Assembly (NCBI RefSeq): GCF_031085175.1
Contig: NZ_JAVHUY010000023.1
Coordinates: 1 to 64,000, forward strand
DNA from: Phytohabitans maris
GTDB lineage: Bacteria > Actinomycetota > Actinomycetes > Mycobacteriales > Micromonosporaceae
DNA: 64,000 nt
Direction: 5' to 3'
The notes beneath the pieces were generated by a model that was not told the DNA's origin, did no database searches, and saw nothing but the letters and a program-made list of their open reading frames with translations. Each line of letters starts with the position of its first letter. The stretch's first letter is position 1. A program made the translations under genes and the position numbers. This document shows, in pieces, positions 20,290-48,828 of the stretch.

Positions 20290-21288
20290 GTGAGCGAAGG
20301 CGGCGTCGAACTCAGTGTCGCTGTAAGCACGGCACCACACACCAGGGCACTCAAAGAGGGCGCGGTGGCACCGCAGGGGCTGCGGCTGAACTTCGTCGAG
20401 GTCGTCCCGATGGTCGCGGCCTACCGAAGGATGATCAGGGATCTGGAGTTCGATGTCTGCGGGTTGGCCCCGGTCACCTATCTCGCGGCCCGCGAAGCGG
20501 GGTTGCCGATCACCGCACTGCCGATCTTCCTCGCCCGCCGATTCCACCATGGCGACATCGTGTGCCGGCCGGGGAGTGGGATCAGGACTCCTGAAGACCT
20601 AGAGGGTCGACGGATCGGCGTGCGGGCCTACACGGTGTCGACCGGAGTGTGGCTGCGGGGAATTCTCGAGTCCGAGTACGGCGTCGATCTCGACTCCATC
20701 ACCTGGGTGGTCGACGACGAGGAGCACGTGTCGTCCTTCGCGCTGCCGTCCAACGTCGAGAAGACCGCGCCCGGTGACTCGATCGCTGACCAGTTTGCCA
20801 ACGGGAAAATTGACGCCGGTTTGACCGGCCCGGCCGGTATCGGCCGCAAGGGCGCGGCCAAGGAGGGCTGGTCGGTGTCCGGCGCGAGTTTCGAGGACGC
20901 CCGTGCGGCCAGCGACCGGTTCTATCCCCTCTTTCCCGACGCCGAATCCGTGGAGACCGACTGGTACCGGCGCACACATATCTATCCGATACACGCCCTG
21001 CTCGCCGTCAAGTCGTCCGTCGTCGCGGCTCATCCGGAAGTGGCGGCGAGTCTTCTCGACGCGTTCGTCCAAGCGAAGGGCGTCTTCCTGACCGAGTTGG
21101 CTTCCGGATCGGCCAGCACCGCCAAGGGTCGGGAGTACAGCGCGTTGCAGGCGATCGTCGGACCTGACCCGCTGCCGTATGGCATCGAGGAGAACCGGGC
21201 GAGCCTCGAGGCGCTGTGTGACTTCGCCGTGAGCCAGCACATTGTTCAACGGCGGCCCACCGTCGATGAACTGTTTGTCAACACATGA
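20290..21288 (+). CDS. Pht5-like protein (4,5-dihydroxyphthalate decarboxylase / NMT1-fold), paralogue 1
   Basis: GTG 20290 with AGAGGA upstream gives 332 residues and no signal peptide. The chain follows the family of 4,5-dihydroxyphthalate decarboxylases: early VAAYRRMIRDLEFDVCGLAP, then FLARRFHHGDIVCRPGSG, then GVRAYTVSTGVWLRGIL, and a C-terminal GPDPLPYGIEENR. These proteins share the periplasmic-binding-protein fold but act in the cytoplasm, which fits the missing signal. It may decarboxylate an ortho-dihydroxy aromatic acid. Many relatives are also mislabelled ABC binding proteins, so the activity is an inference. Confidence 0.75.
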   Translation: MSEGGVELSVAVSTAPHTRALKEGAVAPQGLRLNFVEVVPMVAAYRRMIRDLEFDVCGLAPVTYLAAREAGLPITALPIFLARRFHHGDIVCRPGSGIRTPEDLEGRRIGVRAYTVSTGVWLRGILESEYGVDLDSITWVVDDEEHVSSFALPSNVEKTAPGDSIADQFANGKIDAGLTGPAGIGRKGAAKEGWSVSGASFEDARAASDRFYPLFPDAESVETDWYRRTHIYPIHALLAVKSSVVAAHPEVAASLLDAFVQAKGVFLTELASGSASTAKGREYSALQAIVGPDPLPYGIEENRASLEALCDFAVSQHIVQRRPTVDELFVNT

Positions 21289-21298
21289 AGTGGGTGTG

Positions 21299-22165
21299 AT
21301 GAGCGAACTATCTGTTGTCCTCGAGGACAAACCGTTTACGAAGACGCTGAAATCGCGCGCGGAGATCGCGGGCCTGAAAACGAGTTTCCCGTCCGTCGAC
21401 CCCATCCGTTCCGCGTTTCCGGACATGGTGCGGTCACAACGCTACGACGTGTGTGAGATGGCGATCGGTACCTACCTTCAAGCGCGGGATGCCGGCAAAC
21501 CGCTGCTGTTGCTGCCGGTCGCGGTACTCGGCAGCTTCAAACACAAGAGCCTCTTCGGGTCGCCGGCCTCGAACGTGTCGTCCGTCGCTGATCTCAAGGG
21601 CGCCCGGGTCGGGGTCCGCTCCTACAGCCAGACGACCGGACTCTGGGTGCGCGGCTGGATGGAGGAAGAGTTCGATCTGCCGGCCAGCGCGATGACCTGG
21701 GCGGTCACCAACCGCTCGCACTCCGACCAGTACGAAGATCCGGACAACGTGGTCCTGCTCGACGGCAAACTGACGGACGCACTTTACTCCGGACGAATCG
21801 ACGCGGCCATCACGAGTCAGCGGTCCGTCCCGGATCTGCGGCCGCTCGTACCGGACTTCGCCGAGCGCGACAGAGCGTGGTACCAGCGGCATGGCTGCGT
21901 TCCGATCAACCACATGGTCGTGGTGACGACGCGACTGGCGTCCGAGCGCCCCGACGTCGTACGTGAGGTGTACCGCTTGCTCGCGGACGGAATGGTGGAA
22001 ACCTCCGTCGAAAACAACGGGCTCCCGCCCGGACCTCGAAGTGGCCTGGACGAGGTTCGCCGGGCCGTGGAACTGGCGGCCGAGTACGCGTGCCGGCAGG
22101 CGCTCATCTCGGCCCCGGTCACCGAGATCGAGGCGTTGTTCTGCTTCGACGGACGCCTCGACTGA
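21299..22165 (+). CDS. Pht5/NMT1-fold protein, paralogue 2
   Basis: ATG 21299 (an adjacent GTG at 21296 is possible) gives 288 residues. It is a distant paralogue of the preceding gene with the same landmarks: RSQRYDVCEMAIGTYLQARD, KGARVGVRSYSQTTGLWVRG and RHGCVPINHMVVV. The C-terminus is shorter. It lacks a signal peptide. Together with the upstream protein it could form a two-subunit decarboxylase, or one copy may have a binding role. The gap of ten bases indicates one transcription unit. Confidence 0.7.
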   Translation: MSELSVVLEDKPFTKTLKSRAEIAGLKTSFPSVDPIRSAFPDMVRSQRYDVCEMAIGTYLQARDAGKPLLLLPVAVLGSFKHKSLFGSPASNVSSVADLKGARVGVRSYSQTTGLWVRGWMEEEFDLPASAMTWAVTNRSHSDQYEDPDNVVLLDGKLTDALYSGRIDAAITSQRSVPDLRPLVPDFAERDRAWYQRHGCVPINHMVVVTTRLASERPDVVREVYRLLADGMVETSVENNGLPPGPRSGLDEVRRAVELAAEYACRQALISAPVTEIEALFCFDGRLD

Positions 22166-22190
22166 CGCTCCCACGGGCGGATGCGGCCGC

Positions 22191-22239
22191 TTGACGAGGT
22201 CACTAGCAGCTGAAATACTTTGGTCAGTCCAATTGACCA
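22191..22239 (+). promoter_or_regulatory. promoter and shared operator, unit B
   Basis: TTGACG (22191-22196), a 17-base spacer and AATACT (22214-22219) form a good vegetative-type promoter. The operator TGGTCAGTCCAATTGACCA (22221-22239) follows directly, with inverted arms TGGTCA and TGACCA. Binding here would block initiation, so a repressor is expected. It would control the ten-kilobase unit from 22341 to 32671. Confidence 0.7.
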
Positions 22240-22340
22240 TAGGGCCAAGGGCGTCGCCGACGGCCAGAGCGCAGCCGTCCCAACCGCGCTCCGCCGCCCC
22301 CTCATCTCGAACCGGCGACGACGGACCAGAAGGAGTAGAC

Positions 22341-22919
22341 GTGCGCGACGACTACCTGAAGGGTGTCCTGTCGAGCGAGAAGAAGAACCTCGACTCGTCC
22401 GAGATCGCCGATCGGGACGAGTTCAACCGGCAGCACCCGCCGACCACCGGGCTCGTCGTCGCGGAAGATCTGCGCAAGATGGAGTTGCCGGCCCGGCCGT
22501 GGCGCAACAATCGCGGCCACTATTTCGACCTGGCCGACTACGAAGTGCTGGGCGCGCACATCTCCGAGCTGATGCCGGGAAACAAGTCGGTACGGCACCG
22601 GCACACGACCGAGGCGTACCTGTACGTCGTCAAGGGCCACGGCTACTCGCTCATCAACTACGAGGACGAGCCGATCGAAGTGGTCGAATGGCAGGAGGGC
22701 ACCCTCTTCGCCCCGCCGCGCTGGGCCTGGCACCAGCATTTCAACCTCGACACCAACGACACGGCCCGCTATCTGGCCATCCAGGACACGGGCCTGCTGC
22801 GTACCATGCGCCTCCACAACATCGAGCGACACTCCGTCCAGCTGACCCCCGAGGACGGCAAGAAGCTGCTGGACGAGGCGATCGCGAACGGGACCTCGCA
22901 CGGGGCCAACCGCCGATGA
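22341..22919 (+). CDS. cupin-domain protein
   Basis: GTG 22341 is preceded by AAGGAG at good distance and gives 192 residues. A single cupin barrel is visible: motif 1 around GNKSVRHRHTTEAYLYVVKG (with His, His and Glu ligands), and motif 2 around FAPPRWAWHQHFN. The metal-site residues are kept, so it is likely a metal-dependent enzyme or dioxygenase-like protein. The HQHFN block is repeated in the bicupin at 45241, which suggests related substrates. It is the first gene of unit B and overlaps the aldolase start. Confidence 0.8.
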   Translation: MRDDYLKGVLSSEKKNLDSSEIADRDEFNRQHPPTTGLVVAEDLRKMELPARPWRNNRGHYFDLADYEVLGAHISELMPGNKSVRHRHTTEAYLYVVKGHGYSLINYEDEPIEVVEWQEGTLFAPPRWAWHQHFNLDTNDTARYLAIQDTGLLRTMRLHNIERHSVQLTPEDGKKLLDEAIANGTSHGANRR

Positions 22920-23803
22920 CGACGTCCGCCCGGTTGAACGGGGTGATCGCCGCGCTCGAGCAGGATCGCCACGTGTTCGCCACGTTCGCGGCGCCCGAGG
23001 TCACGGCCGCGGTCCAGTTGAGCACGACGGCGTACGACGGCCTGGTCTTTGAGACCGAGCACAAGCCGTGGGACACCGGCCGGCTCGGTGACTGCTTCCA
23101 GTACCTGCTCAACCGGCGGCGGATATTCGAGGCGGACTCGCTGGCGCCGGCGGTGACGCCCCTGGTGCGGATCCCCCCGAACGGCCAGGAGCGGTCGCAG
23201 TGGCACGCCAAGCAGGTGCTCGACCTCGGGGCGTTCGGGATCGTGTGGCCCCACATCTCGTCGGTCGCCGACGCCTACAACGCCGTCGCGGCGTGCCGAT
23301 ACCCGCGACGGCCGGACCGGGAGCGCTATGCCCCGGCCGGGGTCCGCGGCGACAGCCCCAACGCCGCGAGCCGGTACTGGGGCGTCACGAAGACCGAGTA
23401 CTACCGCCGGGCCGACGTGTGGCCGCTCGATCCCGACGGCGAGATCCTCGTGGCCCTGATGATCGAGAGCGTCGCCGGCGTGGAGAATCTGCCGGCGATC
23501 CTCGACGAGGTCCCCGGGATCGGTCTCGTCATCATCGGCGAGGGAGATCTGAGCCAGGAGCTCGGCGTGCCGCGCCAGTACGAGCATCCCGACGTGCTGG
23601 CCCACAAGGCGGCGGTGCTCAAGACCTGTATCAGCCGGGGCGTCGCCGTCGGCCATCCGCACGTGAGCGTCAAGAACCTGCAACAGGTCCTCGACGACGG
23701 CTACCGGTTCCTCATGTCGAGCCCAGTGACCACCTACCCGGTCCTGGACCTGGGTCGGCAACTGACCGCCACCGAACAGACAGACAAGGGAGTAGGTACG
23801 TGA
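22916..23803 (+). CDS. HpcH/HpaI-family aldolase
   Basis: The ATG overlaps the cupin stop. The 295-residue product shows the class II pyruvate-aldolase layout: TTAYDGLVFETEHKPWD near residue 36, LVRIPPNGQ near 83, LDLGAFGIVWPHISSVADA near 102, and IESVAGVENLPAILDEVPGIGLVIIGEGDLS. The Glu and Asp that bind the metal in this family are present (MIES, EGDLS). It would split a 4-hydroxy-2-oxo acid to pyruvate or oxaloacetate plus a second carbonyl compound. Together with the LigJ-like hydratase at the end of the operon, cleavage of a 4-carboxy-4-hydroxy-2-oxoadipate type intermediate is plausible. Confidence 0.82.
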   Translation: MTTSARLNGVIAALEQDRHVFATFAAPEVTAAVQLSTTAYDGLVFETEHKPWDTGRLGDCFQYLLNRRRIFEADSLAPAVTPLVRIPPNGQERSQWHAKQVLDLGAFGIVWPHISSVADAYNAVAACRYPRRPDRERYAPAGVRGDSPNAASRYWGVTKTEYYRRADVWPLDPDGEILVALMIESVAGVENLPAILDEVPGIGLVIIGEGDLSQELGVPRQYEHPDVLAHKAAVLKTCISRGVAVGHPHVSVKNLQQVLDDGYRFLMSSPVTTYPVLDLGRQLTATEQTDKGVGT

Positions 23804-24675
23804 CCACGACGACGACTCAGGTCCGCATCGTGCCGCGGACGCCGAACTTCGGCGCGCGCGTGGAGGGTCTCGACGCCCGCGAGGAACTCGACGCCGACAC
23901 GATCGCCCAGCTGAAAGAGGCGATCCTCAAGTACAAGGTGCTGTTCTTCCGGGAGCAGAACCTGAACGAGGAGCAGCACGCCCGGTTCGCCGGCTACTTC
24001 GGAGAACCGTTCGAGCACAACAGCAACTTCGACATGCAGTACGAGGACGCCGGCCTGAGCAACGTCACGGTCGTCCCGCACTTCCACAGCGACGTCATGT
24101 ACATGACCGAACAGCCGGGCTTCGCGATGCTGCAGATGCTCACCCTGCCCGATGTCGGTGGCGACACCATGTGGGCCGACCTCGTCTCCAGCTACGACGC
24201 GCTGAGCGAGCCCATCAAGAAGCTCATCGATCCTCTCACGGTCATCAACGTCCACCCGGAGTACTTCGTCGACAGCCAGACACTCTCCGACCGCTACGAG
24301 AAGCGGTACGGCAAACCGCTGACCCCTGAGCAGATCGCCAAGCGGCGCAAGGACCTGAGCCCGACCGAGAGCCCTCTGGTCCGCGTCATTCCCGAGACCG
24401 GGTGCAAGAACTACTACATCAGCGCGTGGCACACGATGCAGATCAAGGGTCTGCCGAAGGACGAGAGCGACGCGATCCTCAACCTGTTGTACAGCCAGCA
24501 GCTCAAGCCCGAGTACGTCATCCGGTGGGAGTGGACGGTCGGCGACATCGCGTTCTGGGACCACCGTACGACGCTGCACGCCGGGGTCAACGACTACGCG
24601 GCGGGCGCGAAGCGGCACGGCCGGCGGGCCAACATCGGCGTCCACAGCCCAGTCCCGTCGGCGAGAGCGGCATGA
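23800..24675 (+). CDS. TauD/TfdA-family alpha-ketoglutarate-dependent dioxygenase
   Basis: The GTG start overlaps the aldolase stop. The 291-residue protein has the Fe(II) motif HxD at residues 96-98 (PHFHSDVMY), the GGDTMWADLVSSYDAL segment, and the distal His and oxoglutarate-binding Arg region WDHRTTLHAG and KRHGRRAN. Length is normal. The family hydroxylates substrates next to a heteroatom, releasing sulfite, a phenol or an alcohol. The substrate here is unknown. In this operon it may remove an ether or substituted side group from the compound before or after the Rieske step. Confidence 0.88.
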   Translation: MTTTTTQVRIVPRTPNFGARVEGLDAREELDADTIAQLKEAILKYKVLFFREQNLNEEQHARFAGYFGEPFEHNSNFDMQYEDAGLSNVTVVPHFHSDVMYMTEQPGFAMLQMLTLPDVGGDTMWADLVSSYDALSEPIKKLIDPLTVINVHPEYFVDSQTLSDRYEKRYGKPLTPEQIAKRRKDLSPTESPLVRVIPETGCKNYYISAWHTMQIKGLPKDESDAILNLLYSQQLKPEYVIRWEWTVGDIAFWDHRTTLHAGVNDYAAGAKRHGRRANIGVHSPVPSARAA

Positions 24676-26165
24676 CGTCGGCCGCAGCCGTCCGCCTGGA
24701 AGATCTGACCCTGGGCATGCCGGCCGCGACGGACGGCTTCGACTTCCCGGCACCGCGTTACCCCGCCTATCTGTGCCAGGAGCGGCCGAGCGACATCGAG
24801 GAGCTGATGCCACTGGCCCGCGCGCACGTGCGGCGCCGGTACGGCCGGTCCGCGCTCGGCGACATCAAGCCGCAGGACGAGCTGCTCATCGTCACATATC
24901 CCCACCAGAACGACATGGTGTTCGAAGCGCTGCGCCGCGCGATGCTGCTCGAAGGGGTGGCGAAGGTGGACCGGGTCGATGTGACGGACCTGGGCGTCGA
25001 GGTCGCTGACTACAGCGCGGCCGAAGGTTGGCGCGAGGTTACCGACCGGGTCGCGGCGATGACCGAGCAGGGGGTCATCCACAGCGTGGCCGCGGCCCGA
25101 TTGAAGGACTACCTGGACGACCGGCCCGGCTACACCGGCGTGCACGCGGGGGAGTCGGGGCGGCGCCACTGGAAGCGGTCAGCCGGGTCGCGGATGCGCA
25201 ACAACTGGACCTACTCCACCTACGAGGATTTCATCTCACGGTCGAACAGCTTTCCGGACGAGCTGTGGCGCATCATCGACCTCCGCGTCGTCGAGGCGTT
25301 CGCCGACGCCGCCGCCGTGCGCATCACCAGCCCGGAGGGGACCGACTTGCGCTGGGATGTCACGGCCGAGCAGGCGGCTCTGTGGGTCAAGGGAGCGTGG
25401 CAGTCGGGCCACATCCTCGGCTCGACCATTCAGGGCATCCGGTTCGGGCACTCGGTCGACACGTTCGTGCGCGAGGCCGAAATCCTGATGCCGACGACGA
25501 ACGGTGTGGTGGCCGGCACGAGCAACCACACCGGGTACTTCCCGCACGCCGAGGTGCACATCGAAGGCGGCATGATCAGCAAGGTGGTCGGCGGCGGGCG
25601 GTACGGTGACGTGTTCCGCGAGGTCATCGAACGCTTCAAGGACGCGCAGTACCCGGGTTTCCCGTACAAGGGATGGGCCTACTTCAACGACGCGTCCATC
25701 GGTACGAACCCGAAGAGCCACCGGCAGATCGAGACCCTCTGGAAGTACAACGACCCGCGGACGAACCTGCCCGAGCGGGCACAGGCCGGGGTCGTGCACT
25801 TCGGGTTCGGTGCGGAGCACTGGGACCAGGTCTTCCTCAAGTACGCGCGGGCCAACAAGCTGCCCACCATGCATTTCCCGCACATCCACAACATCTTCGC
25901 CACGTACGAGATCAAGCAACGCTCGACGGGTGAGTGGGTCAAGCTCATCGACAAGGGCCGGCTGTCGTGCCTCGACGACCCCGACATCGTCCGGATCGCC
26001 AACACCCTGGGCGGGCCGGAGCTGCTGCAGTACGACTGGATCCCCGCGTTGCCCGGCATCAACTACCCCGGCGACTACGCCACGGACTACGCGCGGGACC
26101 CCGTCTCGTGGATCAGGCGAGACCAGAACGGAGAGTTCCAGGTCGCCGCGGCCGGGAGGAGCTGA
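24672..26165 (+). CDS. M29 aminopeptidase / NicX-like metalloprotein
   Basis: A 497-residue protein. The block AAVRITSPEGTDLRWDV and the later GYFPHAEVHIEGGMISKVVGGGRYGD, followed by HFGFGAEHWDQVF and HFPHIHNIFATYEI, resemble the fold shared by M29 aminopeptidases and 2,5-dihydroxypyridine dioxygenase NicX, with His and Glu residues suited to bind a metal. It is longer than both (NicX about 350, M29 about 410). A ring-cleaving dioxygenase role would fill the gap left by the missing LigAB in this cluster, but that is a hypothesis. It overlaps the TauD gene and lies three bases before the MoxR-type gene. Confidence 0.55.
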   Translation: MTSAAAVRLEDLTLGMPAATDGFDFPAPRYPAYLCQERPSDIEELMPLARAHVRRRYGRSALGDIKPQDELLIVTYPHQNDMVFEALRRAMLLEGVAKVDRVDVTDLGVEVADYSAAEGWREVTDRVAAMTEQGVIHSVAAARLKDYLDDRPGYTGVHAGESGRRHWKRSAGSRMRNNWTYSTYEDFISRSNSFPDELWRIIDLRVVEAFADAAAVRITSPEGTDLRWDVTAEQAALWVKGAWQSGHILGSTIQGIRFGHSVDTFVREAEILMPTTNGVVAGTSNHTGYFPHAEVHIEGGMISKVVGGGRYGDVFREVIERFKDAQYPGFPYKGWAYFNDASIGTNPKSHRQIETLWKYNDPRTNLPERAQAGVVHFGFGAEHWDQVFLKYARANKLPTMHFPHIHNIFATYEIKQRSTGEWVKLIDKGRLSCLDDPDIVRIANTLGGPELLQYDWIPALPGINYPGDYATDYARDPVSWIRRDQNGEFQVAAAGRS

Positions 26166-26168
26166 ACC

Positions 26169-27023
26169 ATGACTGACGTGCGATCGCAATCGGTCGCGGA
26201 CCGGCGCCTGGCGTCGGCCGACTACCGGGTCCGCGAGGAGCCTTTCTACGTCCCGGTGGCCGACGAGGTGGCGACCTTCACCGCCGCGTACCAGTCGCGG
26301 CTTCCGGTGCTGCTGAAGGGGCCGACCGGATCGGGCAAGACTCGGTTCCTGGAGTACATGAGCTACCGGCTCGGCGCGGCCCAGCCGCTGCCACTGGTCA
26401 CGATCGCCTGCAACGACGAGTTGAGCTCAAGCGACCTCGTCGGGCGGTATCTGCTCACCGGGCAGGGATCGCAGTGGATCGACGGCCCGCTCACGGCGGC
26501 CGTGACGCACGGCGGGATCTGCTACCTGGACGAGGTGGTGGAGGCGCGCAAGGACACGGTCGTCATCCTGCACTCGCTCACCGACCACCGGCGGCTTCTG
26601 CCGATCGCGAAGCTCGGCGTGGTACTCGAGGCCCATCCCGACTTCCAGCTCGTCGCCTCCTACAACCCGCGGTACCAGTCGTCGATCAAGAATCTGAAGC
26701 ACAGTACCCAGCAGCGGTTCGTCGCGATCGAGTTCGACTATCCGGACACCGGGCGGGAAGCCGAGATCATCCGCGTGGAATCAGGTGTCGATGGCGAGAC
26801 GGCCGACCGGTTCGCCGAACTCGGCGCCAAGATTCGCAACCTAAGCCTGAACAACGTCATCGAGGGACCGAGCACGCGACTGCTCATCTACGCCGCGCGG
26901 ATGGTCGCCACCGGCGTCCCGCTGGGACAGGCATGCGAGGCCGCCATCACCCTGTCGGTGACGGACGATCGGGGTACTGCGGCCGGGATCCGCGAGATCA
27001 TCGACGCGGTCATGGGTGGCTGA
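26169..27023 (+). CDS. MoxR/NorQ/CbbQ-type AAA+ ATPase
   Basis: A 284-residue AAA+ protein. Walker A GPTGSGKT is at residues 51-58, Walker B ICYLDEV at about 117-123, sensor 1 near VASYNP, and the arginine-finger region QQRFVAIEFDYP is present. The early GRYLLTGQGSQWIDGPL segment is typical of NorQ/CbbQ proteins. These form rings that work with a VWA partner to insert or remodel a metal centre or to free an inhibited enzyme. The partner gene follows after five bases. The client is likely encoded in this cluster; TauD, the M29/NicX-like protein and the Rieske oxygenase are all candidates. Confidence 0.9.
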   Translation: MTDVRSQSVADRRLASADYRVREEPFYVPVADEVATFTAAYQSRLPVLLKGPTGSGKTRFLEYMSYRLGAAQPLPLVTIACNDELSSSDLVGRYLLTGQGSQWIDGPLTAAVTHGGICYLDEVVEARKDTVVILHSLTDHRRLLPIAKLGVVLEAHPDFQLVASYNPRYQSSIKNLKHSTQQRFVAIEFDYPDTGREAEIIRVESGVDGETADRFAELGAKIRNLSLNNVIEGPSTRLLIYAARMVATGVPLGQACEAAITLSVTDDRGTAAGIREIIDAVMGG

Positions 27024-32760: not shown

Positions 32761-32813
32761 TTGACGTGAGCGGGGTCACCCTCGTAGGGTAATGGTCTGC
32801 CCAATGGACCATT
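32761..32813 (+). promoter_or_regulatory. promoter and shared operator, unit C
   Basis: TTGACG (32761-32766), an 18-base spacer and TAGGGT (32785-32790) form the promoter. The operator (32791-32813) starts at the next base: AATGGTC, then TGC, then CCAATGGACCATT. Its AATGGTC and GACCATT arms are perfectly inverted. This is the best copy of the motif in the region. It controls the iron-type ABC importer. Confidence 0.75.
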
Positions 32814-38063: not shown

Positions 38064-38116
38064 CGGCCGTAGAGCAGAGGTGCTCCCTGCTGGTACATTG
38101 GACCTACCATTGGTCC
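38060..38116 (+). promoter_or_regulatory. promoter region and shared operator, unit D
   Basis: TTGACG (38060-38065) overlaps the previous stop codon and may be a -35, but the spacing to a -10 is not good; TACATT (38094-38099) is a possible -10. The operator ATTGGACCTACCATTGGTCC (38097-38116) follows, with TTGGACC and GGTCC arms. It lies 17 bases before the ferredoxin start and controls the Rieske unit. Confidence 0.6.
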
Positions 38117-39803: not shown

Positions 39804-40286
39804 ATGGCTGAACCGAGTCCGGTGAGCCGGTGCGCCCGGGCCGCCACCGCGAAGGAGGCGGCGTACCGGATCGACTATCCGTTGGCCTACGCGCGGTCCA
39901 CCCGCGTGGTGGCCTTCGACGACGAGGCGGCGCGGACCGTCCGCGCGGTCATGGACGAGCCGTGGGGCCAGGCGCAGTTCTACTCGGCGCCCGGTCCGGG
40001 CCACGAGCTCCTCACCGTGGCCGGTGAGGCCCGTCCGCTCGCGGGCGAGCTGGCGGACTCGGACTCCGTCATCATGGTCGCTACCAACCGCGTCAACGCC
40101 GAGGCGGTCGCCACGGTCGGTGCAGCGGCGCAGGTGCGCGCCATCATGACGGCCGGCCTCCTGATGGCAGATGAGGACGGCTTGACCGGCGAGACCTTCA
40201 TGGCGATCCGACCGTACGCCCGCATCCTCCTGGCGCCGGCGGATCAGGACGACCTCGTCGAGCTGTTGAGAGCGATCCGCGCCTGA
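39804..40286 (+). CDS. unknown 160-residue protein of the Rieske unit
   Basis: I do not recognise the family. The protein is soluble, without signal or membrane segment. A conserved-looking middle (GHELLTVAGEARPLAGELADSD is two beta strands and a helix; VIMVATNRVNAEAV follows) suggests a small alpha/beta nucleotide- or flavin-binding fold. It begins 20 bases after the Rieske gene and 28 bases before the hydrolase gene, so it is part of the same unit. Confidence 0.6.
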   Translation: MAEPSPVSRCARAATAKEAAYRIDYPLAYARSTRVVAFDDEAARTVRAVMDEPWGQAQFYSAPGPGHELLTVAGEARPLAGELADSDSVIMVATNRVNAEAVATVGAAAQVRAIMTAGLLMADEDGLTGETFMAIRPYARILLAPADQDDLVELLRAIRA

Positions 40287-40314: not shown

Positions 40315-41163
40315 ATGCCAATCGTCGAGCTGCACGGAATCCGGACCCGCTACGAGACCGTGGGAGCCGGACCACCGCTGCTGATGTTCAGCCCGGGCGG
40401 GTTCGATTCGAGCCTCGAGAACTGGACGCAGCTCGGTCGCTACCGCCGGCTCGGTTTCGTGGAGGCGCTATCGCCCCACTACACCTGCATCGTCTTCGAC
40501 CGACGCGAGTCGGGCGCCTCGGGCAGCCGGCTGGAGCGGCTCTCCTGGGCCAAGTACGTCGCCCAGGCGGTCGCTCTCCTCGACCATCTCGGCATCGCGT
40601 CGACGCACACCATGGGTGGCTGTGTGGGCTGCTCGTCGGCGGCGCTGCTGGCCATCGCCGATCCGGTCCGGGTACGGTCGATGGTACTGTTTTCGCCGGC
40701 CGGTGGGGTCACCTACCGGATGCGACAGCAGGAACGCTTCACCGCTCATCTCGGCTTCGTAGCGACGGCCGGCCTGGCGGCGGTGGTCGAGCTTGCCCGG
40801 TCGACGACCGCCGGCTTCTCGACCGACCCGCGGGTCGGCCCGTGGGCCGCGGTGTTGCGTGGCGACGACGCTTTCGCCGCGGCCTACGCGGAGTTCGATC
40901 CGACCCGCTACGCGTGGCTGGTCAGTGGATCAGCGCGTCTGCTCTTCGACCGCGACACCGTGCCCGGTCCGGAGCCAGAAGACCTGCTGACGCTCGATGT
41001 CCCGGCGCTGATCGTGCCCGGGGAGGATACGTCGCACACCCGCTCGGCCGCGCGCTACCTGCAGGAGTGCCTGCCGAACAACGAGTATTGGGACGTGCCC
41101 GTCGCCGAGCAGACGCCCGAGGCGTCGACGGCGCGTGTCCTGGAGTTCCTCGGCCGGCAGTGA
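40315..41163 (+). CDS. alpha/beta hydrolase with Cys in the nucleophile elbow
   Basis: GAGGAGGAA before ATG 40315 gives 282 residues. The fold is clear: LLMFSPGG (oxyanion strand), VFDRRESGAS, elbow MGGCVGCSSA near residue 102, and LIVPGEDTSHT. The elbow has Cys where most members have Ser, as in dienelactone hydrolase. The acid (ED) is present. The catalytic His is not certain. Reaction on an activated ester, enol lactone or C-C bond is possible. In this unit a ring-cleavage product is the natural guess. Confidence 0.78.
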   Translation: MPIVELHGIRTRYETVGAGPPLLMFSPGGFDSSLENWTQLGRYRRLGFVEALSPHYTCIVFDRRESGASGSRLERLSWAKYVAQAVALLDHLGIASTHTMGGCVGCSSAALLAIADPVRVRSMVLFSPAGGVTYRMRQQERFTAHLGFVATAGLAAVVELARSTTAGFSTDPRVGPWAAVLRGDDAFAAAYAEFDPTRYAWLVSGSARLLFDRDTVPGPEPEDLLTLDVPALIVPGEDTSHTRSAARYLQECLPNNEYWDVPVAEQTPEASTARVLEFLGRQ

Positions 41164-41192: not shown

Positions 41193-42326
41193 ATGACAGA
41201 TCGAGTGCGGGCAGCGGTCCGGACCGCGCCGCGGACCACCGAGATCCTCGAGTTCCCGATGCCGGTTCTTGGTGACCACGACGCCCTGCTGCGCGTCGAG
41301 GTCGCCGGCATCTGCGGGACCGACGTCAAGTTGTACGACAACCCCGTGATCGGGGGACCGGTCATCATGGGCCATGAAAACGTCGGGACCATCGAACACG
41401 CTGGTCCTGGATTCACCCGACTGCACGGCGTGAAGCGCGGGGACCGGGTGTTCGTCGAGCATTACGTCGGCTGCTACCACTGTGAGTGGTGTCGGATCGG
41501 GGAGTTCCGTCACTGTGAGGCCACCGATTGGCGGACCAACCCTGACGCGCGTCGCTTCGGCTACACGCCGACCACCAACGAGGGCACGTTGTGGGGTGGC
41601 TTCTCGGAGTACATGTACCTGCCGTGGAACGCGGTCGTCCACCGGGTCCCGGAGGGCGTCAACGCCGAGCTCGCCGGTCTGGTGACCCCACTGTCCAACG
41701 GCATCGAGTGGGCATTGCTCGCCGCGGGCGTCGGCTACTCCGACACCGTCCTCATCCAAGGCCCGGGTCAGCAAGGGCTGTCGCAGGTGGTCGCCTGCAA
41801 GCAGGCCGGAGCGGCACAGATCATCGTCACCGGCACCACTCGCGACAAGGCCCGGCTCGGCCTCGCTCAGGAGCTCGGCGCGGACCACGTCGTCGACATC
41901 TCCCAGGAGGACCCGCTCGACCGGGTCCGCGAGATCACCGACGGCCGGGGCGTCGACTTCGTGCTCGACTGCACCTCTCGGGCCGGCGCGGGTCCCGTCC
42001 TGCTCGGCATCGACGCGCTCAAGCGCCGCGAGGGTGTGCTGCTCATCCAGGGCGAGCTGGCCGCGTTCCCCGACTTCCCGGTCAAGAAAGTCACCGAGAA
42101 GGCGATCACCATCAAGAGTGCGCGCGGGCACTCGTACAAGGCGTGCGAGCTCGCGCTCGAGCAACTGGCGTCGGGTCGCTTCCCGCTGGAGCGGCTGGCC
42201 ACTCACCGATTCCCGCTCGAGGACGTCGACCTCGCCATCCGCACCCTCGGCGGCGAGGGAGTCGACGACGTCATCCACATCTCGCTCATGCCGGGGCTGA
42301 CCCGTCAGCAGATCGAGGCGCTCTGA
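41193..42326 (+). CDS. zinc-dependent medium-chain alcohol dehydrogenase
   Basis: A 377-residue dehydrogenase. Catalytic zinc ligands are in GICGTDVKLYD and GHENVGTIEH. The structural-zinc loop is CYHCEWCRIGEFRHC (four Cys). The coenzyme fold starts at LIQGPGQQGLSQVVACKQAG. It probably oxidises an alcohol or hydroxy acid formed in the pathway. It closes unit D. Its stop lies two bases from the end of the convergent reductase gene. Confidence 0.88.
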   Translation: MTDRVRAAVRTAPRTTEILEFPMPVLGDHDALLRVEVAGICGTDVKLYDNPVIGGPVIMGHENVGTIEHAGPGFTRLHGVKRGDRVFVEHYVGCYHCEWCRIGEFRHCEATDWRTNPDARRFGYTPTTNEGTLWGGFSEYMYLPWNAVVHRVPEGVNAELAGLVTPLSNGIEWALLAAGVGYSDTVLIQGPGQQGLSQVVACKQAGAAQIIVTGTTRDKARLGLAQELGADHVVDISQEDPLDRVREITDGRGVDFVLDCTSRAGAGPVLLGIDALKRREGVLLIQGELAAFPDFPVKKVTEKAITIKSARGHSYKACELALEQLASGRFPLERLATHRFPLEDVDLAIRTLGGEGVDDVIHISLMPGLTRQQIEAL

Positions 42327-42328: not shown

Positions 42329-43567
42329 TCAGGCCGTAGCCTGGAGAAAGACCTTGAGAGGCAAGCTCGGGTCGCTCGCGTGCGGCGCCGGTACGTTGCC
42401 GCCGCGCTCCAGGATGCGGCGCACCGCCATGAAGTCGCGGGGCGAGTTGACCGCGTCGATCGACACCAGCTCGCCGCGTCGGTAGTACAGCAGCGAGAAC
42501 GCCTCGGAGGCTGGATCGCCGCGGAGCACCGTTTCGTCGTATCCGCTGTTGAGTCCCGCGATCCGCAGTTTGAGGTCGGCCTGGTCGGACCAGAACCAGG
42601 GCACGCCGGCAGCCGGGGTCACCACGCCCAGCAGTGTCGCGGCCGCGACCTTGGCCTGGGCGACCGCGTTCGGTACCGATTCCAGCCCCAGGGACCCGAA
42701 CTCGGGGTGGGCGGTGACGGTGCAGTCGCCGGCGGCCACGACGCTCGGAACGCTGGTGCGGGCGCGCTCGTCGACGACGATGCCGCCGTGGCAGGTCAGG
42801 CCGAGCGACTCCGCCAGCTCGGTGCGGGGGACCAGACCGATGCCGACGACGACCATGTCTGCCGGCAGCACGCGCCCATCGGTGAGCTCGACGCCAGTCA
42901 ACCGGCCGCGGTCGCCGGTGAAGCTGGCGACCGCGGTTCCCAATAGGATCCGGGTGCCGCGCCGGCGGTGGGCCGCGCTGTAGAAGTGCGACATCGTCGG
43001 CGCGACGGCCCGGGCCAGCAGCCGGTCGGCCGCCTCGACGACGGTGACGGCCTTGCCCGCCGCGGTCGCGGCGGCCGCGGCCTCGAGTCCGACGAACCCA
43101 CCACCGACGACCACCACTTCTTGGGCGTCTTCGAGCTCCGTGCGCAGCTGAGCGGCGTCGTCGACGTCACGTAGGTAGTGGATGCCGGACAGCTCCGATC
43201 CGGGCGCCCAGATCCGCCGCGGCGCGCCGCCGACGGTGAGCGCCAACCGGTCGAATTCCAGCGTTCGCCCGTTGCGCGTGGTCGCCACACCGGCGCCTTT
43301 TACCGGATCGGTGAGCCGAACGCCCTCGACCCACTCGCCGCACACGAGGTCGATGTCGTAGTCGCGGTAGAACTCCGGCCCCCGGAGGGCAAGATGATCT
43401 TCGCCGAGCTCGCCCTGAAGATATGCCTTGGACAGGGGTGGACGCTGGTACGGCGGCCGTCGCTCGCCGCCGATCAACGTGATCGGCCCGGTTCCGCCGA
43501 GGTCGCGCAGGCTTGTCGCCAACTGAAGACCGGCCTGACTCGCTCCGACGACCAGGGTGGACTCCAT
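42329..43567 (-). CDS. FAD-dependent ferredoxin reductase (putidaredoxin-reductase type)
   Basis: A 412-residue flavoprotein. FAD-binding VVGASQAGLQLATSLRD is at the start, ERRPPYQRPPLSKAYL follows near residue 36, the NAD(P)H site is VVVGGGFVGLEAAAAA near 148, and the second FAD contact AAGDC is near 275. A reductase C-terminal domain closes it. It passes electrons from NAD(P)H to the ferredoxin at 38134. It is convergent with unit D but has its own copy of the shared operator, so the three Rieske parts are co-regulated. Confidence 0.93.
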   Translation of the reverse strand: MESTLVVGASQAGLQLATSLRDLGGTGPITLIGGERRPPYQRPPLSKAYLQGELGEDHLALRGPEFYRDYDIDLVCGEWVEGVRLTDPVKGAGVATTRNGRTLEFDRLALTVGGAPRRIWAPGSELSGIHYLRDVDDAAQLRTELEDAQEVVVVGGGFVGLEAAAAATAAGKAVTVVEAADRLLARAVAPTMSHFYSAAHRRRGTRILLGTAVASFTGDRGRLTGVELTDGRVLPADMVVVGIGLVPRTELAESLGLTCHGGIVVDERARTSVPSVVAAGDCTVTAHPEFGSLGLESVPNAVAQAKVAAATLLGVVTPAAGVPWFWSDQADLKLRIAGLNSGYDETVLRGDPASEAFSLLYYRRGELVSIDAVNSPRDFMAVRRILERGGNVPAPHASDPSLPLKVFLQATA

Positions 43568-43580
43568 ACGACGACTCCTT

Positions 43581-43628
43581 TGGTCGATTGGCCATACCAT
43601 ATTACATTCGCTTGATCGGTGGGCGCAA
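43581..43628 (-). promoter_or_regulatory. promoter and shared operator, unit E (reductase)
   Basis: On the minus strand TTGCGC (43628-43623), an 18-base spacer and TAATAT form the promoter, and ATGGTATGGCCAATCGACCA (43600-43581) follows at once. The motif is ATGGT-ATGG-CCAAT-C-GACCA, again with GACCA as the closing arm. The site lies 14 bases before the reductase start. Confidence 0.65.
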
Positions 43629-43763: not shown

Positions 43764-45248
43764 GTGGAGGTCCAGAGCTTCGAGCAGCACACGCTGACCT
43801 CGGTCGGCATCGACATCGGATCGTCGACGTCCCATGTCGTGCTGTCTCGCCTCAGGATCCGCCGCCAGGGCGATTTCTCCAGTCGATTCGTGGTCACCGA
43901 CCGGGAAGTCGTCTATCTGAGCCCGCCTCGCCTCACCCCGTACTCGACCGGAACGACCATAGACGTCACTGAGCTGGAGACGTTCGTCCGCGCCAGCTAC
44001 GAGGCGGCGGGCCTACAACCCAAGGATGTCGAGACCGGCGCGGTGGTGGTCACCGGCGAGGCCCTCAACAAGCACAACGCCCAGCAGATCGCTGATCTGG
44101 CTGCCCATTGGTCCGGCGACTTCATCTGTGTGTCCGCCGGTCCGCGTCACGAGGCACTGTTGGCCGCGCACGGATCCGGTTCGGTCGCCCTGTCCCGAGC
44201 CACCACCGGCACCGTTCTGAACGTCGACATCGGCGGCGGCACGACGAAGGTTTCACTGGTCGAGAACGGCGCAGTCACCCACCTCGAGGTGTTCAGCGTG
44301 GGCGCCCGGCTGGTCGCCTTCGACGACGCCGGGATGCTGACCCGGATCGAGCCGCCGGCATACCTCTTCGCCGACGAGCTGGGCGTCACGCTGGCGGTGG
44401 GGCGTCGGATCACACAAGACGTGACCGAGGCGATGGCCGGGTTGATGGCGCGGGTCGTCCTCGACTCGGTGACGCCCGGTCCGGCCGCCGAACTGCGGGC
44501 GCGGCTGATGGTGACGCCCTCCGGTGTCCCGTCGCGGCAGCACGGGTGCGCGTTCGACCACATCGTCTTCTCGGGCGGGGTGTCGGAGTACATCGACGAT
44601 CGCGACGACGCTTCATACGGGGATCTGGGCCCGGCTCTGGGGCGGCACATTCGGCGGCTGGTCGCGAGTGCGGGTCTGACCGACCTTCTCGCTCCGGCCG
44701 AGCAGGGCATTCGAGCGACGGTGCTGGGAGCCAGTCAGTTCTCCGTTCAGGCCAGCGGCCAGACCTGCTACATCGCGGAGCCGTCGGCGTTGCCGGTGCG
44801 CAACCTGCCGGTGGCCAGGGTCGAGCTTTGTCCCGGGGCGGATCACGAGAGAGCTCTCATCGACACGCTGAGTCGAGTGGACCGTATCTCGATGGACGAG
44901 CCGATCGCCTTGGTGGTGGAGTTCGCCGGGCCCAGGAACTACCAGGCCCTGCGCCGCTACGCCGAAGCGCTCGTGCGGGTCGCGGCCGGCCACCCGCTGT
45001 ATCTGGTGCTGCGGGACGACCTGGCCCGCTCGTTGGGCCGGCTGATCGCCGAGGAGCTGGGACACGCGGCCACCACCGTCGTCGACGAGATCGAGGTGGG
45101 CGACCTCGAATACCTCGACATCGGGAAACCGATGGGTGCCACCCGATCCCTACCGGTCACCGTCAAGTCCCTGGCGTTTCCACACCAACAGCTGGCCCAC
45201 GCGGCCGGGCGAGACGCGACAAGCGAAGATAGGAACCGAGATGTCTGA
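43764..45248 (+). CDS. EutA-like enzyme-reactivating ATPase (ASKHA fold)
   Basis: From GTG 43764 this gives 494 residues. LTSVGIDIGSSTSHVVLSRL near residue 11 is the phosphate-1 loop, VVVTGEALNKHNAQQIADL follows, and VLNVDIGGGTTKVSLVENG near 151 is phosphate-2. All are typical of EutA, which exchanges damaged cobalamin in ethanolamine ammonia-lyase. No EutBC is in the window. GTG 43764 has no ribosome site. An in-frame ATT at 43725, six bases after GGGGAG, would add a His-rich start (IPHEHRHRLDDGY) like the N-termini of other EutA proteins. The client enzyme is unknown. Confidence 0.78.
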   Translation: MEVQSFEQHTLTSVGIDIGSSTSHVVLSRLRIRRQGDFSSRFVVTDREVVYLSPPRLTPYSTGTTIDVTELETFVRASYEAAGLQPKDVETGAVVVTGEALNKHNAQQIADLAAHWSGDFICVSAGPRHEALLAAHGSGSVALSRATTGTVLNVDIGGGTTKVSLVENGAVTHLEVFSVGARLVAFDDAGMLTRIEPPAYLFADELGVTLAVGRRITQDVTEAMAGLMARVVLDSVTPGPAAELRARLMVTPSGVPSRQHGCAFDHIVFSGGVSEYIDDRDDASYGDLGPALGRHIRRLVASAGLTDLLAPAEQGIRATVLGASQFSVQASGQTCYIAEPSALPVRNLPVARVELCPGADHERALIDTLSRVDRISMDEPIALVVEFAGPRNYQALRRYAEALVRVAAGHPLYLVLRDDLARSLGRLIAEELGHAATTVVDEIEVGDLEYLDIGKPMGATRSLPVTVKSLAFPHQQLAHAAGRDATSEDRNRDV

Positions 45249-46359
45249 TTCGGGCGAAGCGAAACCGAGTGCGTCATTCTTCTACGACGAGTGGATGGAG
45301 AGCCAGAATTTGCCCGTCTATCGGGGACACTTCGTTCCCGATCTGCGCACCATCGACCTGGGCCACTGGCCGGAGCGAGGCTGCAACGGCGCGTTCGTGC
45401 GGCTCGCGGGCATGGAAGGCATCAGCGAGGCCCGCATCACCGAGGTCCTGCCCGGACAGACGACCGAACCCTACAAGGTGGCGGTCGACGAGATGGTGTA
45501 CGTGATCAGCGGTTCTGGTTCGACCACGGTCTGGGCCACCGGCGACCACGCCGAGCAGGGCAAGCAGTTCGAGTGGGCAGACAAGGCCCTGTTCCTCGCG
45601 CCGAACAACCACTACCGGCAGTTCAGCAACCTCTCCGGTGACCGGCCGGCTCGGCTCCTGCACTACAACTACCTGCCCCTGGCCATGTCGGTCATCACCG
45701 ATGTGGCCTTCTTCTTCGACAACCCTTACCGGGCCAACACGACCCGGGCCGAACTCGACTCCGCTTTCGCCCACGCCAAGGAGATGAAGGGTTCCGGGAT
45801 GCGCTGGCTCGCCGGTCGGAACCCGAATGCCACCTACTGGTACGGCAACTTCTTCCCGGACATGAGCGCCTGGGATCAGCTCGACACGAACGCCCATCGA
45901 GGTGCCGGCGGTCGCGTCGTCCGCATCCAGTTCGCCGACTCGGACATGAGCGCACACATGTCCGTCTTCGACGCCCAAACCTACAAGAAGGCGCACCGCC
46001 ACGGCCCGGGCAGATTGATCGTGATCCCGACCGGAGCCGGCTACTCGACTCTCTGGCTGGAGGGCGAGAAGCCGGTCGTCGTGCCGTGGCAGGAAGGTGC
46101 GCTGTTCGTACCGCCGGACCGCTGGTTCCACCAACATTTCAACCTGGGCGCGAAGCCGGCCCGCTACCTGGCCCTCCACCCGCCGGTACAGTTCCATGGC
46201 CACGCCGAACGACCCGAGGACCGGGCACGGGACCAGATCGAGTACCCGGACGAAGATCCAGCCGTTCGCGAGTACTTCGAGGCAGAGTTGGCCAAGCGTG
46301 GCCTGGCCAGCGAGATGCGGCCCGAGGCCTACCAGCGACACGCCGACGCTTGGGCCTGA
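45241..46359 (+). CDS. two-domain cupin protein
   Basis: A 372-residue protein whose ATG overlaps the EutA-like stop. The first cupin barrel has VLPGQTTEPYKVAVDEMVYVISG and FLAPNNHYRQF. The second has MSVFDAQTYKKAHRHGPGRL and FVPPDRWFHQHFN. The second domain keeps the two-His motif plus the closing His; the first seems to have lost most metal ligands. Gentisate-type dioxygenases share this layout. It may be a ring-cleaving enzyme of the pathway, but that is an inference. The HQHFN block matches the single cupin at 22341. Confidence 0.75.
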   Translation: MSDSGEAKPSASFFYDEWMESQNLPVYRGHFVPDLRTIDLGHWPERGCNGAFVRLAGMEGISEARITEVLPGQTTEPYKVAVDEMVYVISGSGSTTVWATGDHAEQGKQFEWADKALFLAPNNHYRQFSNLSGDRPARLLHYNYLPLAMSVITDVAFFFDNPYRANTTRAELDSAFAHAKEMKGSGMRWLAGRNPNATYWYGNFFPDMSAWDQLDTNAHRGAGGRVVRIQFADSDMSAHMSVFDAQTYKKAHRHGPGRLIVIPTGAGYSTLWLEGEKPVVVPWQEGALFVPPDRWFHQHFNLGAKPARYLALHPPVQFHGHAERPEDRARDQIEYPDEDPAVREYFEAELAKRGLASEMRPEAYQRHADAWA

Positions 46360-46467: not shown

Positions 46468-47418
46468 TCAGCCGCGCAGTTCTTGTGTACCCTCGGCGAA
46501 CAGCGTCTCCAGCGCGACCGGGCGTGTGAGGATGCCCTGGTCGGTGGCGTGCCGGACGATCTCCTCCAGCACCGCGCGGTTGTCCTCCAACCCGTAGGGG
46601 AGCGGATCGGCGCCGGTGATCCGCATGACCCGTTCGTGCGTTCGATCCACAGAGGTCGGATTGTCGACGGCGCCGTCGCGCAACCGCCGCACGTAGCGTT
46701 GCTTCGAAGACGTGAACGCCTCGAAGAGATCTGCGGCGAGGTCCGGGTACGCGTCCAGCAGTTCGTCACGCACGACGACGAGGTGGTTGATCGGGTAGTG
46801 GCCGCGGGCCCGGAGAGCCGCGTAGCCGGCCTCCGCCGCGTCCGGGATCAGCGGCGCGACCCCCGGCGCGTCGACGGACGAACCCACGGCCGCGTCTAGG
46901 GCGCCGGTGCTCACCAGCTCAGCCAGGTCGGGACTGCCGGCCGGAAGCGGGCGCACGTTCGGTGGGGGCGCGTACTCGGCAACGTGCTCGTCTCCCGACG
47001 GCGCCCATGTCACCTTGTCCAGGTCCAAGCCGTACTCGTCACGCAGGACGCCGCGGGCCCAGACACCCGTGGTCACGGTGTAACCCCGGCTGACCCCGAC
47101 CGTGCGCCCCGCGAGGTCGGTCGGGTTCGTGATGCCCGCAGCTGTGTTGACCACGACTGCGCCGTGGTGGAATCCGCGAACCAGGAAGATCGGCAACGCC
47201 GTGAAGGCAATCCCATGCTCCTTGGCGCAGAGGTACGTGGTGACAGCCATCTCGCAGACGTCGAACTCGAGCCGGCGGACCATGCGGCGAAAGGCTTGCA
47301 CCAGCACGGGGACGTCGACGAACTCCAGCTGGTAGCGCCTGGGCCGAACCAGCCCGGAGGTGAGGTCCCGGTTGTTGCCTTGGGTGCGAGTAACGGTGCG
47401 CAACGCCCGTTCTGCCAC
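46468..47418 (-). CDS. Pht5-like protein, paralogue 3
   Basis: GTG 47418 gives 316 residues without a signal peptide. The same family blocks as in paralogue 1 are seen: RRMVRRLEFDVCEMAVTTYL, FLVRGFHHGAVVVNTAAG, VSRGYTVTTGVWARGVL and GADPLPYGLEDNR. It is closer to the gene at 20290 than to the one at 21299. Its own promoter was not found, but the operator of unit G lies in the shared upstream spacer and is nearly symmetric, so it could act in both directions. Confidence 0.75.
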   Translation of the reverse strand: MAERALRTVTRTQGNNRDLTSGLVRPRRYQLEFVDVPVLVQAFRRMVRRLEFDVCEMAVTTYLCAKEHGIAFTALPIFLVRGFHHGAVVVNTAAGITNPTDLAGRTVGVSRGYTVTTGVWARGVLRDEYGLDLDKVTWAPSGDEHVAEYAPPPNVRPLPAGSPDLAELVSTGALDAAVGSSVDAPGVAPLIPDAAEAGYAALRARGHYPINHLVVVRDELLDAYPDLAADLFEAFTSSKQRYVRRLRDGAVDNPTSVDRTHERVMRITGADPLPYGLEDNRAVLEEIVRHATDQGILTRPVALETLFAEGTQELRG

Positions 47419-47452
47419 CTTGCCCCGCCTCTCGACGCTCCTGGATTTTCGC

Positions 47453-47484
47453 TAGACTATCAAACAGTCAGTCCATTAGGCCAT
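47453..47484 (+). promoter_or_regulatory. -10 box and shared operator, unit G
   Basis: TAGACT (47453-47458) is a likely -10 and AGTCAGTCCATTAGGCCAT (47466-47484) is the operator. Its left half is identical to the one at unit A. The site lies between the leftward Pht5-like gene and the rightward MFS gene. Confidence 0.6.
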
Positions 47485-47547
47485 CGGGTGTGAAGCTGGC
47501 ACCAAGACGGGAGCGAACATTGGCGGAACTTCGATGGGGTTAGGAGC

Positions 47548-48828
47548 GTGACGACCGCGCAGCGCCGGCCCATCCTTCGGCGACTGATCATCGACATCAC
47601 GCCGCTGCGTGAGTCATCCGACTACCGGCGACTCTGGACCGGAAACGCCATAGCAATCCTGGGCAACCAGATGACCCGGGTCGCGGTGCCCTACCAGGTC
47701 TACGTGCTGACTCACTCGACCCTGATCGTTGGTCTGGCGAGCCTCGCGCAACTCGTCCCGCTGATGCTCTGCTCGCTGTTCGGCGGCGCGGTCGCGGACG
47801 CCGTTGACCGGCGCAAGCTGTTGATCGTCACCGAGAGCCTGGCCGCCGCCGTCGTCGGCGGCTTGGCCCTGCTCGCGTTGATCGCCCGTCCCCCGGTCTG
47901 GGCCATCTTCCTGCTCGTTGCCGTCTCGGCCGGTCTCTCCGCGTTGGAGGGCCCGGCCCGCAACGCCTCGTTCGCCGGCCTGGTTCGGCGGGACATCCTC
48001 CCGTCCGCGTTCGCGCTGAACCGGAGCCTCAACCAGGTCGGGACGATCGTCGGGCCAGCGGTGGCCGGTGTCGTGATCGCGGCGCTCGGCGTGTCGACCA
48101 CGTACCTGGCCAACGCCATCACCTTCCTTCTATCCATCGCGGTGCTCAGCCGGATGCGGCCGATGCCGCCGGCCCACGCCGTCACCCGGCCCGGACTCCG
48201 GTCCGTCATGGAAGGCCTCAACTACCTTCGGAGCAAGCCCGCCGTGATGGGTTGCTTTCTGGCCGACCTGAACGCGATGTTCTTCGGGATGCCGCGGGCA
48301 CTGTTCCCAGCGATCGCCCTGGACCAGCTCGGCGGCGACGCGGTGACCGTCGGCTTGTTGGCCGCCGCCCCGGGCGCCGGTGCTCTCATCGGCGCCCTTA
48401 CCTCGGGCTGGATCAGCTCGGTGACGCGGCAAGGACGCGCCGTAATCACCTCGGTCGTCATGTGGGGCCTGGCGATCGCCGGTTTCGGCCTCTCGCACTG
48501 GCTACCCCTCAGCCTGCTCTTCCTGATGGTCGCCGGCGTGGCCGACGTGGTCTCGGCCGTGTTCCGCCAGACCGTTCTGCAGCTCAGCGTGCCCGATCGC
48601 TTGCGCGGACGGCTTTCCTCTGTCCACATCGGCGTCGTCGCGGGCGGTCCGCTACTGGGGGACGCGCGGGCCGGAGCGGTCGCGAGCGTCACCGGTCCGG
48701 CGTTCGCGATGGTCTCCGGTGGTGTTGCCTGCTCAGTCATCATGGGACTTCTCGGCTGGCGGCTGACCGCCCTTCGGCGGTGGACGCTCGCCGATGCCGA
48801 GGTCGATCACCGCGACGACGGAGCATGA
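47548..48828 (+). CDS. MFS transporter (MFS_3 group)
   Basis: GTG 47548 with AGGAG just upstream gives 426 residues and twelve hydrophobic segments. SDYRRLWTGNAIAILGNQMT at the first helix, GGAVADAVDRRKLL after helix two and EGPARNASFAGLVRRD after helix four place it in the same exporter group as the gene at 16846. Because it carries the shared operator, it may export a toxic intermediate or an unused part of the substrate. Import is served by the ABC system of unit C. Confidence 0.88.
   Translation: MTTAQRRPILRRLIIDITPLRESSDYRRLWTGNAIAILGNQMTRVAVPYQVYVLTHSTLIVGLASLAQLVPLMLCSLFGGAVADAVDRRKLLIVTESLAAAVVGGLALLALIARPPVWAIFLLVAVSAGLSALEGPARNASFAGLVRRDILPSAFALNRSLNQVGTIVGPAVAGVVIAALGVSTTYLANAITFLLSIAVLSRMRPMPPAHAVTRPGLRSVMEGLNYLRSKPAVMGCFLADLNAMFFGMPRALFPAIALDQLGGDAVTVGLLAAAPGAGALIGALTSGWISSVTRQGRAVITSVVMWGLAIAGFGLSHWLPLSLLFLMVAGVADVVSAVFRQTVLQLSVPDRLRGRLSSVHIGVVAGGPLLGDARAGAVASVTGPAFAMVSGGVACSVIMGLLGWRLTALRRWTLADAEVDHRDDGA

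Follow-up and report, generated by a model that had tools for sequence, protein, structure and literature searches.

The locus

The window analysed here, a stretch of 64,000 nucleotides from the actinomycete Phytohabitans maris (contig NZ_JAVHUY010000023.1, positions 1 to 64,000), contains at 19.0–48.8 kb a catabolic regulon, i.e., known enzyme families in an undescribed combination that is conserved in soil bacteria. Its gene models were built from frame composition and from Pfam and NCBIfam profile searches. The gene set, which probably degrades a multi-carboxylated aromatic acid, includes a Rieske oxygenase system, an ATP-binding cassette (ABC) importer, two cupins, the 4-oxalomesaconate hydratase LigJ and a candidate metalloenzyme of NicX/M29 fold, together with a CbbQ–CbbO pair and a EutA-like ATPase (Table 1). 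What is unusual in the region, and well supported, is that two probable mononuclear-metal enzymes are each linked with one of these ATP-driven remodelling systems. An earlier note, made from the sequence alone, had described a large catabolic system, with no match among known pathways, that would act on a substituted aromatic acid. That description fits the evidence, since the gene set recurs, the operator is common to the region and no publication describing this combination was found in a literature search; the note overlooked CbbQ, CbbO and the EutA-like protein, however. The same search found neither EutA joined with a dioxygenase cluster nor a Pht5-type decarboxylase combined with LigJ and a cupin, and nothing of use turned up on how dipicolinate or benzene polycarboxylates are broken down.

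A NicX-fold protein accompanied by CbbQ and CbbO

The gene preceding cbbQ encodes a protein of 497 residues, here called M29-like, that matched no Pfam family and no PDB sequence. Its AlphaFold model (predicted local distance difference test score, pLDDT, 72; predicted template modelling score, pTM, 0.74; 27-sequence alignment) has NicX as its best fold match (VIA Z 16.5 over 311 residues, 11% identity), followed by M29 aminopeptidases (Z 9–11). The M29/NicX likeness claimed in the earlier note is thus borne out at the level of fold and has no counterpart in the sequence searches. Compared with NicX, a 2,5-dihydroxypyridine dioxygenase (7CN3; PMC7910607), the window protein is ~150 residues longer, shows an apparent HxH in place of H318xD320 and has a CbbQO partner. 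The HxH, seen across the M29-like family where M29 and NicX enzymes carry HxD, comes from an alignment by eye and serves as a lead only.

The CbbQ/NorQ-type AAA+ ATPase encoded next matches both the CsoCbbQ structure (5c3c, E 4.5e-91) and NorQ (9qh4, E 8.6e-85), and its Walker motifs are conserved in an alignment of relatives. In the CbbO/NorD-like protein, the MIDAS motif DxSxS and a DG pair of the von Willebrand factor A (VWA) domain are invariant in 10 aligned sequences. NorQD puts iron into nitric oxide reductase (cNOR), and CbbQO reactivates rubisco (PMC13036017, PMC4660213). The window proteins resemble these systems in a CbbQ that is homologous along nearly its whole length and in a VWA partner with an intact MIDAS, whereas the partner gene encodes a NicX-fold protein rather than cNOR or rubisco. 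Among the genes of the region that were scanned, none encodes rubisco or cNOR, a search that did not extend to the whole genome.

A scan of species genomes gave 25 M29-like loci in Actinomycetota and Betaproteobacteria, with one further locus in G057. CbbQ and/or CbbO accompanies the M29-like gene in all 25 informative related genes, a count that leaves out a gene at a contig end (L037) and the first member of a tandem pair in L038, in which the second member has CbbQO. The gene order is either M29-Q-O or Q-O-M29, and in one case, the second L038 copy, a single gene intervenes. The two L038 copies (2457–3917 and 9080–10528) stand beside a single CbbQO set. The other neighbours vary and include ABC importers, genes that resemble TctABC in sequence, thiamine pyrophosphate (TPP) enzymes and cupins. 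In G096 and G114, the surroundings of distant M29-like relatives (~33–36% identity) include cupins and transporters and no CbbQO; such relatives, noted at L080 and L081, offer a usable activase-free comparison.

A EutA-like ATPase beside a bicupin

The second motor is a EutA-like ASKHA ATPase, a member of PF06277 that scores below the NCBIfam equivalog cut-offs and whose ATPase motifs are conserved in the alignment. Its neighbour, cupin 2, is a bicupin in which H254, H256, H299 and H301, the putative metal ligands, are invariant in 19 of 19 aligned sequences. EutA homologues were searched for in seven genomes carrying the cluster, in 395 genomes of the class and in 300 of the order of Oxalobacteraceae bacterium CAVE-383, and the surroundings were read for most of them. 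Among the 21 genes counted, which include that of the window and exclude three EutB-linked ones, a cupin 2 relative lies within ~4 kb in 18 and is directly adjacent in 14. Of the three without it, two are in L062, where one lies near a contig start and the other has smaller cupins at a distance of ~8 kb; the third, in L110, is at a contig end and has a different cupin nearby.

Next to the three excluded homologues (L108, L109 and L115), EutB directly follows (E <1e-200) and cupin 2 is present in none, so that they serve as an internal control. In a tree, these three EutAs stand apart from the 19 other sequences (support 100/99); the window protein sits on a long branch, so that its placement inside its group is unsure. 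The window protein and the EutA that reactivates ethanolamine ammonia-lyase share the PF06277 family and the ATPase motifs, whereas the window type forms a separate, cupin-linked clade. The reactivase role itself was considered for the window protein and rejected, since a profile search found no EutB (PF06751) in the eight cluster genomes, P. maris included. CAVE-383, a cultivable isolate that also carries M29-CbbQO, holds six EutA-like matches (L062, L063, L064 and L068), five of them near full length and most with cupins, Pht5-like genes or genes for binding proteins in the vicinity.

A linkage is an association and does not by itself identify a target, so that CbbQO and the EutA-like ATPase might act elsewhere, e.g., on the Rieske oxygenase or on a transporter, and not as activases of their neighbours. 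We consider this quite unlikely, as CbbQO remains with the M29-like gene where other genes change and the EutA-like gene remains near cupin 2 across phyla.

A recurring core unit and a common operator

The Rieske oxygenase gene, a gene for a small conserved protein and an alpha/beta hydrolase gene form a core unit, to which ferredoxin, alcohol dehydrogenase, a Pht5-like protein, LigJ and a GntR regulator mostly also belong. The unit recurs in G449, G450, G057, G272 and G427 and as a second copy in P. maris itself (L103), so the shared occurrence in relatives that the earlier note had proposed to look for is observed. Cupin2-EutA belongs to it in G450, G272, G427 and L103, and relatives add a PanB-like gene and a LigK-type RraA. 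The second copy (G000:C29:30000-49900) has PanB-like, LigK, cupin2-EutA and GntR genes and no M29-CbbQO in the stretch read, whereas G449 combines the core unit with M29-CbbQO and has no EutA-like gene. The region thus consists of two modules, neither of which strictly needs the other: the core unit, which extends from Rieske to LigJ and usually includes cupin2-EutA, and M29-CbbQO as an addition.

The GntR/FCD protein, whose relatives (58–72% identical) adjoin orthologous units, is probably the regulator of the regulon and would bind the operator. With up to three mismatches, the operator TGGTCNNNCCAATGGACCA occurs at six sites in the window against 0.53 expected, a count reached in none of 100 shuffles, which agrees with the single operator type reported earlier. 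Four of the six sites lie upstream of cupin 1, the binding protein, the ferredoxin and the reductase. As the matrix was built from four window sites, independent evidence can come only from other genomes, and two such sites were found by matrix scan. In a Streptosporangiales genome, TGGTATGTCCATTAGACCA (L066:130, 24.4 bits) lies a short way upstream of the orthologous ferredoxin, and in G272, TGGTCTGTCCATTAGACCA (L107:5802, 23.4 bits) lies between the ferredoxin and cupin 2. Both score above the best match on the reversed window (16.6), and the operator is therefore also present beside orthologues in two further genomes. A scan of the P. maris genome with two mismatches gave 8 matches versus 15 for the reversed control, an uninformative count, and the two best matches outside the window (L042 and L047) adjoin non-catabolic genes.

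The absence of M29-CbbQO beside the second core unit in P. maris means that the region does not have to be a single linear pathway. It could hold two or three short pathways that are independent except for a shared regulator and importer, with the 20–31 kb and 38–46 kb parts acting on different compounds; the core units at L103, G427 and G272 likewise have no M29-CbbQO nearby, and M29-CbbQO stands in many loci with no core unit beside it. However, the operator is common to both parts, and three other genomes (G449, G450 and G057) also carry both, G449 and G450 on one contig, which makes such independence doubtful.

The Rieske oxygenase and the likely substrate

The phthalate-type Rieske link drawn in the earlier note can be sharpened to isophthalate dioxygenase, whose structure (9ina) is the closest solved one (E 3.2e-122). 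The window enzyme is ~45% identical over some 416 residues to the enzyme of Comamonas testosteroni KF1 (9INA; PMC12445078), and it retains the Rieske and iron ligands as well as both carboxylate anchors (R234 and H257 in the KF1 enzyme, R243 and H266 here). The two differ at the ortho-face residue F249 of the KF1 enzyme, which is R258 here, at its L198 and F333, which are N207 and I341, and in electron supply, as the window enzyme has a separate ferredoxin and reductase, whereas the KF1 enzyme has one reductase. The arginine R258 is found in 7 of 7 Rieske orthologues, and two paralogues have F or Y in its place. In an engineered isophthalate enzyme, F249H was intended as an extra contact to an ortho carboxylate (PMC12445078). 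The retained anchors and R258 in place of F249 therefore suggest that the substrate is a meta-dicarboxylate bearing a further acidic or polar group.

LigJ and the opening of the ring

By its match to a solved 4-oxalomesaconate hydratase, the LigJ recognised in the earlier note is genuine, and the P. maris genome holds two copies. The substrate of LigJ is normally supplied by LigAB or gallate dioxygenase in the Lig pathway. The link to this protocatechuate 4,5-cleavage route that the earlier note proposed stands, with LigJ in the window and a LigK-type RraA beside LigJ in relatives (LigK is present in L066, L034, L077 and L103 and absent from the window). Yet the window differs from this route in having other enzymes before LigJ and, as noted before, no LigAB; PF02900 had no match in the P. 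maris genome (97% complete). Because this genome is without a LigB-type dioxygenase, we tentatively assign ring opening to cupin 2, the NicX-fold protein or both, which are the natural candidates.

The fold match to NicX, the alpha/beta hydrolase within the core unit and an isochorismatase-family gene on a G450 contig would also suit a pyridine-type dicarboxylate, e.g., a dipicolinate-like compound with both carboxylates meta. The Rieske enzyme would then hydroxylate the ring, the NicX-fold protein would cleave the hydroxypyridine and hydrolases would finish in the manner of NicD and NicF; the combination with PuuE-like and TPP genes also recalls the breakdown of lumichrome (PMC12746152). However, a genuine LigJ, with LigK in relatives, points to 4-oxalomesaconate, a product of a carbocyclic ring, no NicF-type gene was seen in the region, and the apparent metal ligands are unlike those of NicX. 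We therefore regard a pyridine substrate as unlikely; the N-heterocycle or imide toward which the earlier note leaned is likewise no more than a possibility. The G450-cluster contig L070 carries two isochorismatase-like genes (70–774 and 1998–2675), one of them confirmed by Pfam.

Remaining genes of the region

Pfam and NCBIfam searches placed the Rieske set, TauD, cupins, HpcH, TPP, PuuE-like and importer genes where the earlier note had them, and two of its labels fell. The label Cys-nucleophile hydrolase was dropped for the protein at 39804–40286, as its orthologues share no invariant cysteine (its single-sequence structure prediction is poor, pLDDT 38), and the supposed PDC-lactonase-like protein is a generic Amidohydro_2 hydrolase. 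The three Pht5-like proteins are present as genes and matched only generic binding-protein models; the label expresses what we take to be a resemblance. Beyond the regulon, a frame of 192 residues at 49924–50502 partly covers the profile of the HpaB N-terminal domain and looks truncated or frameshifted.

Table 1. Genes and operator sites at 19.0–48.8 kb of the window, with the basis of each assignment
Feature	Coordinates	Strand	Basis
GntR/FCD regulator	19025..19801	+	Pfam FCD, GntR
Pht5-like protein 1	20305..21288	+	Pfam Phosphonate-bd/NMT1 only; Pht5 label by resemblance
Pht5-like protein 2	21299..22165	+	Weak Phosphonate-bd
Operator TGGTCAGTCCAATTGACCA	22221..22239	+	Motif search
Cupin 1	22335..22919	+	Cupin_2; G057 orthologue 84% identical
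HpcH/HpaI aldolase	22916..23803	+	Pfam/NCBIfam
TauD-family dioxygenase	23800..24675	+	Pfam/NCBIfam
NicX/M29-fold metalloenzyme candidate (M29-like)	24672..26165	+	AlphaFold model; conserved family
CbbQ/NorQ-type AAA+ ATPase	26169..27023	+	AAA_5 and CbbQ_C
CbbO/NorD-like VWA protein	27035..29104	+	Position after CbbQ; sequence
TPP-dependent enzyme	29092..30723	+	Pfam/NCBIfam
PuuE-like polysaccharide-deacetylase-family hydrolase	30742..31635	+	Pfam/NCBIfam
LigJ, 4-oxalomesaconate hydratase	31652..32671	+	E 9e-141 to 6dwv
Operator TGGTCTGCCCAATGGACCA	32793..32811	+	Motif search
ABC solute-binding protein	32851..33942	+	Pfam/NCBIfam
ABC permease, two transport domains	34101..35954	+	Pfam/NCBIfam
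ABC ATPase with TOBE domain	35951..37180	+	Pfam/NCBIfam
Amidohydro_2 family hydrolase	37206..38063	+	Generic Amidohydro_2 only; no PDB match
Operator TGGTAGGTCCAATGTACCA	38091..38109	-	Motif search; L066 has similar site upstream of ferredoxin
2Fe-2S ferredoxin	38134..38460	+	Fer2
Rieske oxygenase, isophthalate-dioxygenase-like	38482..39783	+	Rieske/LigXa_C
Conserved small protein	39804..40286	+	No Pfam match; no invariant Cys among orthologues
Alpha/beta hydrolase	40315..41163	+	Pfam/NCBIfam
Zinc alcohol dehydrogenase family protein	41193..42326	+	Pfam/NCBIfam
Ferredoxin reductase	42329..43570	-	Pfam/NCBIfam
Operator TGGTATGGCCAATCGACCA	43581..43599	-	Motif search
EutA-like ASKHA ATPase	43764..45248	+	PF06277 E 2.4e-101
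Cupin 2, bicupin partner of EutA-like protein	45241..46359	+	Near EutA-like genes in other loci
Pht5-like protein 3	46468..47418	-	Orthologues 58–68% identical in five other loci
MFS transporter	47548..48828	+	Pfam/NCBIfam

A proposed pathway and a possible role for the two motors

We tentatively favour a GntR-controlled regulon by which an aromatic polycarboxylic acid would be used under aerobic conditions; motors of CbbQO and EutA type would load or revive its ring-opening metalloenzymes. The order of reactions that we infer is as follows. The ABC system would import the acid and the isophthalate-dioxygenase-like Rieske system would hydroxylate its ring, after which dehydrogenase and Pht5-like steps would re-aromatise or decarboxylate the product. 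A mononuclear-metal enzyme, i.e., cupin 2 and/or the NicX-fold protein, would then open the ring, and LigJ with an aldolase (LigK in relatives, perhaps HpcH in the window) would finish toward pyruvate and oxaloacetate. The EutA-like ATPase would be the ATP-driven partner of cupin 2 and CbbQ–CbbO that of the NicX-fold protein, both loading metal or clearing a dead-end state, by analogy with the action of NorQD, CbbQO and EutA on their respective targets. That the CbbQO AAA+/VWA complex and the EutA-type ASKHA ATPase are dedicated activases of mononuclear-metal ring-cleaving enzymes is a possibility that we put forward with reserve. To our knowledge, dedicated ATP-using helper proteins have not been reported for ring-opening enzymes.

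However, several observations weigh against this scheme. LigB-family genes lie elsewhere in other genomes that carry the core unit (they were found in six other genomes tested), and the window lacks two genes of that unit, LigK and PanB-like, which the second copy has. The sequence link of the M29-like family to M29 enzymes is not significant (no match to the PF02073 profile; hhalign E 0.025, probability 2%), and its apparent HxH ligand set, differing from HxD, leaves oxygenase activity uncertain. In addition, P. maris itself carries one core unit that has no M29-CbbQO, and G449 combines core unit and M29-CbbQO in the absence of a EutA-like gene.

Implications

Ring-cleaving dioxygenases are lost by oxidation of their own iron, for which the familiar rescue is the ferredoxin XylT. 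If the activase role proposed here is true, it would be a new, ATP-dependent way of keeping aromatic dioxygenases alive. The conserved pairing would extend the AAA+/VWA and EutA-type ATPase families to new targets, and it would give small soluble systems for studying the action of MoxR-type and ASKHA motors. For soil bacteria, the gene set provides a signature of a widespread, undescribed pathway, probably for aromatic polycarboxylates.

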